From: Microgenomates group bacterium ADurb.Bin219
Lineage (GTDB): Bacteria; Patescibacteriota; Microgenomatia; UM-FILTER-40-11
DNA: 42,804 nucleotides
Direction: 5' to 3'
Assembly: GCA_002069945.1 (NCBI GenBank)
Contig: MWCH01000009.1
Location: 1 to 42,804, forward strand
Part shown: in pieces, positions 695-24,218 of the stretch
Numbering within the stretch: the first letter of the stretch is position 1
Layout of the letters: the number at the start of each line of letters is the position of its first letter
Notes under the pieces: model-generated
Told to the model about the DNA's origin: nothing
What the model saw: the letters and a program-made list of their open reading frames with translations, nothing else
Databases searched by the model: none
Program-made: the position numbers and the translations under genes

Positions 695-1210
695 TTATTC
701 TAAACGTGTTCTAATCTCCTTAAGACATTCTTCCAACGATAATTTTTCCGTATCTAAAACTAAAGCACCGGGGTAAAAGGTTTTTTCCAATTGGTTATAA
801 ATTCTTTCAATAACCTCATCGCCTAACGGCTTGCGGCAACCTTCTTTAATGCCCGGCCTGGTCCTGTCCCTTTCTTGTAAAACGCCAAGTGAACACTTTA
901 TTTGAAAAACTTTTACTTTAATATTTCTCTTTTCGGCCAATTTAACCGCCAAGGGAATAATAAAAGGATCAAAAAAGATTTTTTCCATAACTACGGAAAA
1001 CCCGGCATCAAGTAAATATTCCAAAACCGCCAAAGCACATTTATCAACATATTTCTGTTCCGACAAAGAAGCTTCGCCGGAGAAAAAATCTTTAAAATTA
1101 TCAACTTTCAGCCAGACAATTTTTTTCTTGAAATTTCTAAGTCCTTTGGCAATGGTGGTTTTCCCGCTGGCCGGCGCTCCGCGAATAATTACCAAAAATT
1201 GTTTTGCCAT
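695..1210 (-). CDS. P-loop (AAA_33 / zeta-toxin-like) kinase
   Basis: A 171-residue P-loop protein. Walker A is GAPASGKT at about residues 11-18. After it come a D-N-F substrate/Mg region ('LKVDNFKDFF'), a hydrophobic strand ending 'VVMEKIFFD', and an arginine-bearing lid ('QERDRTRPG'). This is the pattern of small nucleotide/sugar/antibiotic kinases in the AAA_33, gluconate kinase and zeta-toxin group. The substrate cannot be read from sequence. No antitoxin-like gene is adjacent, so a toxin role is not supported. Codon use (GGC, CCG, GCC) matches the core genes, so I place it outside the mobile element. Confidence 0.75.
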   Translation of the reverse strand: MAKQFLVIIRGAPASGKTTIAKGLRNFKKKIVWLKVDNFKDFFSGEASLSEQKYVDKCALAVLEYLLDAGFSVVMEKIFFDPFIIPLAVKLAEKRNIKVKVFQIKCSLGVLQERDRTRPGIKEGCRKPLGDEVIERIYNQLEKTFYPGALVLDTEKLSLEECLKEIRTRLE

Positions 1211-1570: not shown

Positions 1571-1879
1571 CTATTCCCTGTAGTAATGTTTACTAATCAG
1601 ATACACCAAAAATATAAATGTTGCTAAACCTAACAACCAATGGAAAAGTCCCAAATAAATTGACGGGATCATTGCCAGAATAACCAATATTCCCGATATA
1701 GTTTTACTGTATTGTGCGTCTTTAATACCCTTACTGACTGCCCTAGCATCTATCGTGCTATTCGATGGGCTAAAAATCTGGCTACTACTCGGAACTTCTA
1801 ACCACTCTCCGCAATGCTTACACTTCTTAGCATCGGCCAAGATTTCCTCTGCACAATAGGGACATTTTATTTTATTCAT
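1571..1879 (-). CDS. zinc-ribbon membrane protein
   Basis: A 102-residue protein. The N-terminal treble-clef/zinc-ribbon has two knuckles, C-P-Y-C (about residues 6-9) and C-K-H-C (about 20-23). A polar linker follows, then two hydrophobic segments (about 61-78 and 80-96) that should anchor it in the membrane with the ribbon in the cytoplasm. The start is supported by a strong Shine-Dalgarno AGGGGGTGA just upstream, unusual in this window. That ribosome-binding site lies inside a structured leader (1880-2021) able to hide it, so regulation at translation or by attenuation is likely. Function unknown; such ribbons often sense or bind nucleic acid or partner proteins. Confidence 0.7.
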   Translation of the reverse strand: MNKIKCPYCAEEILADAKKCKHCGEWLEVPSSSQIFSPSNSTIDARAVSKGIKDAQYSKTISGILVILAMIPSIYLGLFHWLLGLATFIFLVYLISKHYYRE

Positions 1880-2021
1880 TTGTTCACCCCCTGATCGGTT
1901 TTATTAGCGGTGAACCAAAAAGCCCGCCGCTAGCGATGGCTTGCGCCACCTACCAATCTTTCGATTGATAACCGATCAAGGATGCTCTAACGACGAGCTT
2001 TCTGCCCTTGATCGGATTTTT
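1880..2021 (-). promoter_or_regulatory. structured leader RNA with alternative pairings (riboswitch-like)
   Basis: Read on the minus strand toward the zinc-ribbon gene, the order is as follows. P1 is CCGATCAAGG/CCTTGATCGG (plus coordinates 2006-2015 with 1972-1981), with an inner GCTC/GAGC helix. P2 is CAATC-GAAA-GATTG (1954-1967). P3 is GGTGGC-GCAA-GCCATC (1935-1950). Then comes a terminator-like hairpin AAGCC..CGC/GCG..GGCTT with a T-run (1917-1942). Two GNRA tetraloops and a G.U pair favour the minus strand as the RNA. The 3' arm of P1 can instead pair with CCGATCAGGG (1889-1898), which contains part of the Shine-Dalgarno. GTTCACC (1909-1915) can pair with GGTGAAC (1882-1888), also over the ribosome-binding site. 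The P3 and terminator hairpins overlap and exclude each other. The topology loosely recalls c-di-GMP-I riboswitches, but that consensus is not met. Confidence 0.6.
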
Positions 2022-2133
2022 TGCCATGCCTTACAGCGCAAACTATAAAGTTTAGGCAATTTCTAACTAACCCTATTTTACATTATTATCTCGCAAATTC
2101 TCAAGACATTTAGTACAATTAAAGACAATTAGT

Positions 2134-2334
2134 ATGAACCCAGACATTGAAGAGTTGCTGACTATAGATCAGGCAGCAAAAATACTGAAAGTAAACGCAC
2201 AGACATTGCGCAGATGGGACAGGCAAGGCATCCTAAAAGCAGTCCGTGTAGGCACACGGCGAGGTGTGGGAGATAGACGCTATCGCAAGCAGGATATTGA
2301 GGCATATATATCCCGCCATCACAAAAGTAAGTAA
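2134..2334 (+). CDS. excisionase-family MerR-like HTH protein (left end)
   Basis: A 66-residue single-domain DNA-binding protein of the HTH_17/excisionase type. 'LTIDQAAKILKVNAQTLRRWDRQG' is the helix-turn-helix plus the start of the wing, and 'RRYRKQDIEAYI' is the typical C-terminal wing and helix. It is clearly related to the second HTH protein at 12322-12546. It is the first gene of the element and heads a long plus-strand operon. Candidate roles are recombination directionality factor or operon regulator. A TACAAT -10-like box lies at 2114-2119, and there is no Shine-Dalgarno. Confidence 0.8.
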   Translation: MNPDIEELLTIDQAAKILKVNAQTLRRWDRQGILKAVRVGTRRGVGDRRYRKQDIEAYISRHHKSK

Positions 2335-2350
2335 AATTAAAAAGAGAATT

Positions 2351-3346
2351 ATGAAAATAAAAATTGATGAGGCAAAACAATTATCGAATAAGATTCTTCG
2401 GAAAATTGGGTTCTCTGATGGCGATTCTCATTTAATAACACAAAACCTTATTGATGGCGAGTTAACTGGCCGAAAAAGCCATGGTTTTGTGAGACTACCT
2501 GCTATTAAAAGAAATGTAGAGGGTGGAAAACTCAGCACAACGCATGAAGAAATTGAGATCGTTAAGGAAACAAATTCATCATTACTGATCAACGCGAAGA
2601 ATAAGCCTGGTTTTATTGCTATCTATAAATCTCTTGAAAAAGCAATTCCCAAAGCCAAAGAATCAGGAATCGTTGTGGTAGGAATTCAAGATGCGGAATA
2701 CTGCTCAGGTTACATAGGATCATACGCAACACATGCTGCTTCTAATGACTTAATATTCATTGGATTTAACAACTCTCCTGGTGGGTTAGTTCCATACGGA
2801 TCAAAAAAAGAACTTTGGGGTACAGATCCAATTACAGTAGGTATACCCACCAATGACGTCCCCGTCATCTTAGACATGGCCTCATCCAAAATAACATGGG
2901 GTGAGTTGATGGTAGCAAAACAGGAGGGAAGAAAGATTAGAGAGGGAGCAGCTATTGATAAAGACGGAAACCCCACAACGAACCCAGAAGAAGCTATGGC
3001 AGGAGGGTTATTGCCTATCGCCGAACACAAAGGATCGGGCTTAGCGTTCATTGTTGAACTACTAGCTGGTGCTTTAACTGGTTCAAGAGTTGGGCAATCT
3101 GTAAATGGTGGTTGGGGCACTTCATATATTCTTATCAATCCTGCAATTTTCAGGCCAATAGAAAAGTTCAAGAGAGACGTTGAAATTGCAATTAAAGAAC
3201 TGAAAAACGCTCCAAAAGCAGAGGGTATAAATGAAATTTACTATCCAGGTGAACAATCAGAAAAACGAAAGAATGAGAATACTAAATCAGGAGAGATTGA
3301 AATCAATGACAATTTACATACAGCATTACAAGAGATTCTAAAATGA
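2351..3346 (+). CDS. malate/L-lactate dehydrogenase family (Ldh2) oxidoreductase
   Basis: A 331-residue NAD(P)-dependent 2-hydroxyacid dehydrogenase of the Ldh_2 (MdhC/YlbC-like) fold, unrelated to Rossmann-type LDH/MDH. Family landmarks in order are the 'KSHGFVRLP' segment with the conserved His, 'LWGTDPITVGIP', 'ILDMASS' and 'AEHKGSGLAFIVELLAGALTG'. Length is near the usual 330-350. The frame is open upstream to 2264 inside the HTH gene, but the ATG at 2351 fits the family N-terminus and follows AAAGAGAATT. The stop overlaps the next start (ATGA), so it is translationally coupled to the DUF5680 gene. Substrate (malate, lactate, sulfolactate, ureidoglycolate) cannot be told. A metabolic enzyme in second position of a mobile-element operon is unusual. 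Confidence 0.85.
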   Translation: MKIKIDEAKQLSNKILRKIGFSDGDSHLITQNLIDGELTGRKSHGFVRLPAIKRNVEGGKLSTTHEEIEIVKETNSSLLINAKNKPGFIAIYKSLEKAIPKAKESGIVVVGIQDAEYCSGYIGSYATHAASNDLIFIGFNNSPGGLVPYGSKKELWGTDPITVGIPTNDVPVILDMASSKITWGELMVAKQEGRKIREGAAIDKDGNPTTNPEEAMAGGLLPIAEHKGSGLAFIVELLAGALTGSRVGQSVNGGWGTSYILINPAIFRPIEKFKRDVEIAIKELKNAPKAEGINEIYYPGEQSEKRKNENTKSGEIEINDNLHTALQEILK

Positions 3347-3813
3347 ATAAAGAAGCATTAAGACAATTTCTAGTAGATTCAAATAAAGCTGGTTATGCTG
3401 GTGGCGAAGAGAAGAAATGGATTAAAGAACCAAACGGATCGACTACGATACCTTTTGAAAAAGGTGAATGGCGATCCGACGACAATTTCTATGGCGGTGA
3501 ACCTTACGGAGGCAGGATTGTTGTGTTTTATAAGGACAAACCACATTGGATGATGGTTTACTACGGTTGGGTGACTGAAGACGTGGAGACAAACATTGTT
3601 TATGGGATTTTAAGAGGTGCGTTAATGAAAATGCCAGATGATGCACCATTCAGAGGGCCACGAGAATATAAGGAGGGAAAATTCACATACACTAACAAAT
3701 GGATTGGGGATGTGGAGCAGTATTCTGGAGAAGAACAAATAACCCAAGGTGGAAATTTGATATACAAGGCAAATTATATGGGTGGTTTAGTCGATCAAAG
3801 ATCAGGAGTTTAA
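3343..3813 (+). CDS. DUF5680 domain protein, element copy
   Basis: A 156-residue protein made entirely of a DUF5680-type domain. Conserved blocks are 'GYAGGEEKKWIKE', 'GSTTIPFEKGEW', 'GGEPYGGR' and a C-terminal 'GLVDQ'. It aligns without gaps to the chromosomal protein at 36219-36689; my hand count is 103 identical residues of 156. No catalytic motif is recognisable, though the conserved W, Y and G positions suggest a small beta-rich binding fold. It is coupled to the dehydrogenase by an ATGA overlap. DUF5680 domains are elsewhere often fused to HTH regulators (family knowledge), which hints at a sensing role. Confidence 0.8.
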   Translation: MNKEALRQFLVDSNKAGYAGGEEKKWIKEPNGSTTIPFEKGEWRSDDNFYGGEPYGGRIVVFYKDKPHWMMVYYGWVTEDVETNIVYGILRGALMKMPDDAPFRGPREYKEGKFTYTNKWIGDVEQYSGEEQITQGGNLIYKANYMGGLVDQRSGV

Positions 3814-17809: not shown

Positions 17810-19192
17810 ATGCCTAATAATAAAAATATTTTAACACCTTTGACTTTTCTAACTTACACTTTGGGCTGCCGCGTCAACCAGGCGGAAATCGGAACTATCA
17901 GTCATCGGCTGTCTGCTTTCGGTTTTCAAGAAATTCCTCCTGCTCTTTTACTCTCCCGCTCTCCTGCTCTAGTAATAATCAATACTTGCGCCGTTACTTT
18001 AAAGGCCGAAAAGGAAAGCCGTAAGGCAATCCATCACTTTAAACGGCTTTATCCAAAGGCCAAAATTGTCGCCATCGGCTGCGCTGCAAAATTGGTCAAA
18101 GACGCCGATTTAGTTATAAGCAATAAGGAAAAAATGAAAAGTCTAAAAATCATTACGGCAAAATTTGGTTATCAAACGAAAAAATCCGAATCCGACTATT
18201 CGCTTATTCCTAAATCCTATTCCCTAACTTCGTCCGGCCGCTCCCTGGTTAAAATCCAGGAAGGTTGCGACCAATTTTGCAACTATTGTATTGTTCCTTA
18301 CTTGCGCGGCAAACCCAAAAGTACTTTACCGCGGGAAATCATTTGCCAAATTAATAAATTGGTTGACCAAGAGATTAAAGAAATTATTCTTTGCGGTATT
18401 AATTTAAGTCTTTACGGCCTTGATCTAACACCCAAAACAACTCTAACCGCTCTAATTAAAAAAATTTTAAAAGAAACCAAGGCAGAAAGAATTTCCCTCT
18501 CGTCAATTGAACCCGAGTTTCTCTATCAAAACCTTGAATTTGTCGAATTATTTATTAATCAACCTCGTCTTGCAAAATATTTTCATCTGGCTTTACAAAG
18601 CGGCTCTCAAGAAAACCTAAAGCAGATGGGCAGAAAGACCGATTTGAATAAACTATTAAAAACTGTTCGTTTTCTCGGAAATAAATTTCCCGAATTTGCT
18701 TTTAGAGCCGATGTCCTTGTCGGTTTTCCGACCGAAACCGAAGAAAACTTTAAAGAAACTTTGGATTTCATCAATAAAGCGCCCATTACTTTTGCTCACG
18801 TTTTCCCTTTCTCAACAAGACCGGGCACTCCGGCGGAAAAAATGATTAAATCGGGAAAATGGCATGATTTACCAAACAAAATAAAAAAAGAAAGAGTCAA
18901 AAAGATTATGGATCTGACCAAAAGCATTCAAGAGCAAGAGGCAAAAAATTTTATCGGGAAAATCTTACCCTGTTTAATAACCAGAAAAATTTCCGGCGGT
19001 TATGAAGCAATTGCCAATAATTCTTGGGTCGTGCATATCAGCTATCGACCTTCATCTGTCAATCGTCGGATATTAATTGGAAAAGAATTTCCGATCAAAA
19101 TCACCGGTTATTCAAATGGAGTTTGCGCTGGCGAATTTTCTTCTGGTGGCCTGGTGAATTATAAATCTCGTCAAGAACCCGGTTGTCGTTAA
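17810..19192 (+). CDS. mtaB: tRNA t6A37 methylthiotransferase MtaB
   Basis: A 460-residue radical-SAM methylthiotransferase of the MtaB/YqeV branch, which turns t6A37 into ms2t6A37 in ANN-decoding tRNAs. The UPF0004 domain carries Cys in 'TLGCRVNQ' (C20), 'INTCAVT' and 'AIGCAAK'. The radical-SAM cluster is 'EGCDQFCNYC', and 'LQSGS' and 'FRADVLVGFPTETEENF' follow. A short TRAM-like end ('IKITGYSNGVCAGEF') closes the normal protein. About 17 further residues lie in a 92-bp overlap with the convergent nucleotidyltransferase gene and look like a non-homologous tail. TsaD and TsaE, which make the t6A substrate, are encoded in this window. Confidence 0.9.
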   Translation: MPNNKNILTPLTFLTYTLGCRVNQAEIGTISHRLSAFGFQEIPPALLLSRSPALVIINTCAVTLKAEKESRKAIHHFKRLYPKAKIVAIGCAAKLVKDADLVISNKEKMKSLKIITAKFGYQTKKSESDYSLIPKSYSLTSSGRSLVKIQEGCDQFCNYCIVPYLRGKPKSTLPREIICQINKLVDQEIKEIILCGINLSLYGLDLTPKTTLTALIKKILKETKAERISLSSIEPEFLYQNLEFVELFINQPRLAKYFHLALQSGSQENLKQMGRKTDLNKLLKTVRFLGNKFPEFAFRADVLVGFPTETEENFKETLDFINKAPITFAHVFPFSTRPGTPAEKMIKSGKWHDLPNKIKKERVKKIMDLTKSIQEQEAKNFIGKILPCLITRKISGGYEAIANNSWVVHISYRPSSVNRRILIGKEFPIKITGYSNGVCAGEFSSGGLVNYKSRQEPGCR

Positions 19193-24141: not shown

Positions 24142-24146
24142 AATTG

Positions 24147-24218
24147 TGACCCCACTCGGACTCGAACCGAGGTTTACAGGATGAGAACCTGCTGTCCTAG
24201 CCGCTAGACGATGGGGCC
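24147..24218 (-). tRNA. tRNA-Glu (CTC)
   Basis: A 72-nt cloverleaf on the minus strand. Acceptor GGCCCCA/TGGGGTC (one G.U), D-stem GTCT/GGAC, anticodon stem GCAGG/CCTGT with loop TTCTCAT (anticodon CTC at 34-36), T-stem CTCGG/CCGAG with loop TTCGAGT, discriminator A at 24147. CCA is not encoded. It is followed at once by the PPC gene. Confidence 0.95.

Follow-up and report, generated by a model that had tools for sequence, protein, structure and literature searches.

The preQ1-II and SAM-II RNAs are translational riboswitches in which a pseudoknot hides the Shine-Dalgarno sequence. Trp-type attenuators follow the strand scheme 1:2 / 2:3 / 3:4, and ToxI, the RNA of type III toxin-antitoxin systems, is a pseudoknotted RNA with a terminator-like end just before a gene. 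The leader described here lies upstream of a zinc-ribbon gene of Microgenomates group bacterium ADurb.Bin219 (contig MWCH01000009.1; "the window" is the whole stretch of 42,804 nucleotides that was analysed) and belongs to the LOOT RNA family. With preQ1-II and SAM-II it shares the place in a leader, exclusive pairings and, as a predicted output, access to the ribosome-binding site (RBS), but the LOOT family differs in its very diverse targets, its use of a private helix-arm copy as an RBS mask, and a predicted logic that is opposite in different lineages, and the class is known here without a ligand. The chain of loop-tail, tail-antitail and anti-SD/SD pairings in the window and in its one full-length homologue resembles the trp scheme, but the predicted output is ribosome access, no leader peptide was seen, and strand 1 is part of a loop within a large, conserved RNA. 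Like ToxI, LOOT is a pseudoknotted RNA with a terminator-like end just before a gene, but it has no repeats and its downstream proteins are not one toxin family.

From sequence comparison and folding models, we consider it probable that the window element is a LOOT RNA in the zinc-ribbon 5' leader that controls translation in cis through mutually exclusive folds. The LOOT identity, the leader position, the pseudoknot and the start-codon copies come from comparison across loci, in which tail/antitail and anti-SD pairings are enriched more weakly; the fold states and their effect on translation are predictions from folding energies. Gene control in Patescibacteria is almost unknown. If this reading is right, a family filed as sRNA would turn out to be a cis-acting switch that is widespread and has both an additional pseudoknot and a three-strand design. 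Its recurrent place before DNA methyltransferases and nucleases would then offer a handle on when episymbionts use them.

The zinc-ribbon leader is a LOOT RNA

An Rfam scan of the whole window gave two matches only, one tRNA and LOOT RNA (RF03000). The latter covered positions 1935-2058 of the minus strand with 94.4 bits against a gathering score of 46.4 (cmscan) and spanned the full model (1-121 of 121), all hairpins included. The earlier note had found a switch-like leader that it could not match to any known class. The sequences it named were all located on the minus strand, its 10-bp P1 is LOOT hairpin 2, and its two hairpins with GNRA loops are LOOT hairpins 3 and 4, so the leader does have a class. 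The feature also begins further upstream than had been drawn, at a 5' hairpin that was overlooked; with this fifth hairpin added, the whole element extends from 1877 to 2058 on the minus strand. The window element carries both the CCTAAAC/GCATGG hairpin and the GAAA/GNRA hairpins by which membership is recognized, and the single-stranded and loop bases CCTAAAC, GCATGG and GAAA are near-invariant columns across 132 LOOTs. The window leader folds far better than its shuffles (z -6.3). The Rfam model ends at hairpin 4 and covers neither the tail and its pseudoknot nor the antitail, anti-SD and start-site copy (Table 1).

LOOT RNA is a metagenomic motif of the Weinberg data set, typed "Gene; sRNA" in Rfam (PMC7779021, PMC11701678), and a structure-prediction paper listed an extreme number of cross-covariations, 28, for it (PMC7657543). 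These may reflect the pseudoknot with the tail. In the searchable literature (the Rfam papers and the one structure-prediction paper) no function is given for LOOT, and the extra helices and a cis role are undescribed; the original LOOT description may hold more.

Table 1. Parts of the LOOT element and the adjacent gene in the window
Feature	Positions	Strand	Basis
LOOT 5' hairpin, CCTAAAC...GCATGG	2022-2058	-	CM alignment; near-invariant columns, 132 LOOTs
Hairpin 2, 5' arm CCGATCAAGG (P1 of the earlier note)	2006-2015	-	CM alignment; covariation
Hairpin-2 loop strand AAAGCTCGTCGTTAG, pseudoknot 5' strand	1987-2001	-	Pairing with tail, covariation
Local loop hairpin GCTC/GAGC	1984-1998	-	Rfam model; weaker covariation
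Hairpin 2, 3' arm CCTTGATCGG; partner is the 5' arm or the RBS copy	1972-1981	-	Covariation; energies
Hairpin 3, GAAA tetraloop	1952-1969	-	CM alignment; near-invariant columns, 132 LOOTs
Hairpin 4, GCAA tetraloop	1935-1950	-	Covariation
Conserved tail CTAGCGGCGGGCTTT, pseudoknot 3' strand; 3' half of the formerly proposed terminator	1919-1933	-	Loop pairing, covariation, hold-out
GTTCACCGCTAA: antitail CCGCTAA overlapping anti-SD GTTCACC	1904-1915	-	Tail pairing; changes in the homologous leader L042
Anti-SD GTTCACC	1909-1915	-	
RBS copy of the hairpin-2 5' arm, CCGATCAGGG	1889-1898	-	Copy scoring; family-wide copies
Shine-Dalgarno GGGGGTGAAC, including masked GGTGAAC (1882-1888)	1882-1891	-	Sequence
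Zinc-ribbon membrane protein gene, 102 aa, two predicted transmembrane segments	1571-1879	-	ORF, hydropathy, Pfam

A pseudoknot between the hairpin-2 loop and the tail

About 200 LOOT loci from Patescibacteria were used for the family comparison. Both-side changes exceeded those in shuffles for hairpin 2 (226 against 101) and for hairpin 4 (143 against 39, with 87.5% of cells paired). The tail, directly 3' of hairpin 4, forms with the hairpin-2 loop a pseudoknot that is 15 bp long in the window (AAAGCTCGTCGTTAG with CTAGCGGCGGGCTTT). The loop-tail pairing score was 31.5 within the own locus and 18 across loci, and reached at least 20 in 148 of 154 loci. When 132 sequences were aligned without regard to structure, 88.7% of the pseudoknot cells paired and 270 both-side changes were counted, against 74 +/- 12 after shuffling (0 of 500 shuffles). 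This signal peaked sharply at slide 0 and was abolished by a slide of one column. The local loop hairpin drawn by Rfam covaried less (58 against 29). Because they share bases, the pseudoknot and the local loop hairpin exclude each other, and covariation backs exclusive pairings both here and between the hairpin-2 arm and the start-site copy. In a hold-out of 49 new LOOT loci, for which the criteria were fixed before testing, the pseudoknot was present in 96%.

The tail is also complementary to an antitail 10-25 nt further on, and this pairing scored at least 20 in 30% of loci within the own locus against 8% across loci. For several loci of the window's class (L044, L046, L049, L074 and L075) this antitail doubles as the anti-SD; in the window, CCGCTAA and GTTCACC have two bases in common. 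A general anti-SD hairpin in all loci was considered and rejected: the pairing showed enrichment for the window's class, with 32% in the best 5% of ranks, but was weak elsewhere (12%).

Predicted fold states and access to the start site

These pairings suggest a set of exclusive folds. In the folded state hairpin 2 would be closed and its loop paired with the tail, which would free the antitail/anti-SD to pair with the Shine-Dalgarno sequence, turning translation off. In a refolded state the loop would close on itself and the tail would pair with the antitail, so that the anti-SD is disrupted and the Shine-Dalgarno released. In a third pairing the 3' arm of hairpin 2 would bind the copy at the RBS and lock the site again. 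Candidate triggers would be a ligand, a protein, the ribosome or temperature. The family appears to use two logics: the prediction for folded LOOT is an open start site in loci that carry the copy and a closed one in several anti-SD loci of the window's class.

Computed energies are consistent with such a balance. The note had proposed that the 3' arm of P1 can pair either way, and the two helices are indeed nearly equal, at -15.9 kcal/mol for the 10-bp helix and -15.6 kcal/mol for arm:RBS copy. The minimum-energy fold of the window leader combines arm:copy with tail:antitail at -74.2, against -70.9 for the hairpin-2 form, these being model energies that ignore pseudoknots; the pseudoknot duplex alone is worth -21.6. 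Since the two folds are close in energy, the balance fits what a switch needs. The RBS mask energy in the window is -10.4 kcal/mol. Across loci with a start-site copy, the modelled median cost of opening the RBS was 3.3 kcal/mol with LOOT folded and 13.8 refolded, and the cost changed in the same direction in 20 of 21. The direction was reversed in the five anti-SD loci named above, and loci outside the window's class that lack a copy showed no net predicted change between states.

The second mask of the earlier note, GTTCACC with GGTGAAC, also held: GTTCAC and GTGAAC are unchanged in L042, the only full-length homologous leader found, where compensating changes have occurred in the arms, the pseudoknot and tail:antitail, the last on both sides. 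Taken together, the proposed switch layout, the two RBS masks and translational control gained comparative support across the family, except for the ligand-binding sense of the word riboswitch.

A constitutive structure or an RNA thermometer that sets a low expression level without a ligand would be compatible with the diversity of the downstream genes, which share no pathway, and with the window itself, where the Shine-Dalgarno is predicted to be masked in both states, through GTTCACC:GGTGAAC when folded (10.5 kcal/mol) and through arm:copy (13.8 kcal/mol). However, the highly conserved unpaired and loop bases and the paired alternative folds exceed what a simple hairpin requires, and we regard this reading as unlikely. 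For the switch that we favour, with each mask predicted closed in its own state, the ON state would rest only on the tail:antitail fold, which is predicted to break the GTTCACC:GGTGAAC mask.

No support for a conserved local terminator in the tail

The terminator-like hairpin drawn by the earlier note (AAGCC/GGCTT) was not supported by comparison, as it hardly covaried at all (81.7% of cells paired, 80.1% in shuffles). The strong covariation partner of its 3' strand is instead the P1 hairpin loop (88.7% against 75.4%), and a conserved local GC-rich hairpin directly before a U run, as in an intrinsic terminator, was not found. This bears on a transcriptional switch, in which the tail and U run would be the 3' half of an intrinsic terminator whose partner is the hairpin-2 loop, with the antitail acting as the antiterminator. 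The GC-rich tail followed by a U run, the exclusive partner segments and the run of at least five T in the tail region of about half of loci are all as expected of such a device. Many tails nevertheless have the sequence CTTTGTGT, which makes a poor terminator. The local hairpin lacks covariation, and the start-site copies and anti-SD pairing act on translation and not on termination; control of transcription therefore seems improbable.

Distribution and position of LOOT

LOOT was found in 54 of 374 genomes of the window's class, and in 83 of 380 genomes drawn over the phylum. For the classes to which two other phylum members belong the counts were 41 of 188 and 52 of 192; the 14 control genomes had none. 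Here, then, it is almost confined to Patescibacteria, where about 15-27% of the sampled genomes per group carry it, some with up to seven copies. Pattern scans of viral and genome sequences gave mostly chance matches; 11 of 12 filtered candidates resemble LOOT by eye, and six of them, scanned with the Rfam model, were confirmed. One LOOT leader (L310, 2333-2444, minus strand) lies in a contig labelled Bathyarchaeota, with gene and leader resembling the Patescibacteria type, which is probably a binning error. Elsewhere two LOOT RNAs lie on one strand about 240 nt apart (G478:C3:17612-17748 and 17988-18107).

Of 157 loci in which a neighbour could be called, 148 have the next gene on the LOOT strand, against 597 of 874 (68%) background neighbour pairs, and in the hold-out a same-strand ORF lay in range in 46 of 49. 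The start codon follows the Rfam end by a median of 57 nt (quartiles 48-67). LOOT thus lies consistently 5' of a same-strand gene, the position of a cis-regulatory RNA switch.

Copies of the hairpin-2 arm at start codons

In many loci the 5' arm of hairpin 2 is repeated just before the start codon of the downstream gene, mostly ending 1-9 nt before the ATG. The copy score was at least 9 in 20 of 147 loci (14%), against 0.04% in the start regions of other loci and 0% in the coding sequence of the same loci. Copies recurred in 12 of 46 hold-out loci (26%; 0.34% in controls), giving about one locus in five with a copy and about 80% without. The window's RBS copy scored 8.5 against the 5' arm, and control regions reach at least 8 in 0.14-0.27% of comparisons. 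Among eight pattern-scan loci read by eye, five had the copy: two are on viral contigs (L163 and L174) and three on other genome contigs. The protein encoded after L174 resembles those at L075, L380 and L433. Joint changes of both arms and the copy are seen in the homologous gene pairs L381/L417, L376/L385 and L362/L427.

Five of the seven LOOTs in genome G702 have five different private copies. The arm sequences matched no other start site in the window's own genome and hardly anything beyond LOOT in eight further genomes, which points to cis pairing, and the idea of trans targets was dropped. Arms do recur across otherwise dissimilar LOOTs (CCTTCGCAGG, CCTCGTGAGC, CCGATCAAGG), 45 pairs sharing a 9-mer against 1.9 expected (158 loci); for these recurring arm sequences, too, no trans target was found.

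These results bear on whether LOOT is a free-standing, trans-acting small RNA ended by its U-rich tail, with the adjacent gene served by its own promoter. Its Rfam type says as much, and formally that label is the hit to a known non-regulatory RNA that the earlier note had named as counting against a switch. The type is an annotation and not a structural criterion. A TATAAT-like box just 5' of LOOT (50% against 18% in a distal control) and the T runs noted above point the same way. Against it stand the tight same-strand spacing to the start codon, only about 41 nt from the tail, the arm copies at the adjacent start codon and nowhere else in the genome, and the several G702 LOOTs each with a copy of its own. 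Leader position and cis-only pairing thus oppose the label, and we think it very unlikely that LOOT is an independent small RNA.

That the copies are functionless leftovers of duplication or chance is hardly credible, even though the window's copy is missing from L042 and arms recur across loci above expectation, given their frequency over controls (20/147 and 12/46 against 0.04-0.34%), their one fixed position and the joint change of all three strands in homologous loci.

Downstream genes

The zinc-ribbon protein matched Pfam Zn_ribbon_3 (E 9.8e-6; 25.3 bits, just under the 27-bit cut-off) and had no relative among solved structures. Full-length homologues occur in only 2 of 374 class genomes, the window's and G120, a third match being partial. 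The gene at L042, the only other full-length homologue, is 55% identical; the two genomes are from different families, both genes lie behind a LOOT, and gene and leader may travel together. The earlier note had feared for its switch if homologous genes lacked a conserved upstream structure; the outcome went the other way, L042 having LOOT and the same RBS hairpin.

Downstream proteins across the family included zinc-ribbon membrane proteins (7 of 140), N6/N4 DNA methyltransferases of type II/III (5), staphylococcal-nuclease-like proteins (4), DUF4352 (3), YceG (2) and single Dam-type, C5 methylase, GmrSD and Mrr genes, and 119 of 154 had a predicted transmembrane segment. The lack of a shared pathway is unusual for a metabolite riboswitch, and this diversity of targets argues against a simple feedback riboswitch. 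More tentatively, LOOT might be an orphan riboswitch class that senses one common signal and sets the translation of accessory genes (restriction-modification, nucleases, membrane zinc-ribbon proteins), with private arm/start-site addresses preventing cross-talk and on/off logic inverted between lineages; we put this forward as a possibility that is rather doubtful at present.

In the window, a small HTH_17/MerR-type (excisionase-like) gene (2134-2334, plus strand) is divergent from LOOT; behind it come an Ldh_2 dehydrogenase gene (2351-3346) and then a DUF5680 gene (3343-3813). An AAA_33 / zeta-toxin / CPT-like kinase gene lies at 695-1210 (minus strand), and the sole tRNA of the window, tRNA-Glu (CTC), at 24146-24218 (minus strand).
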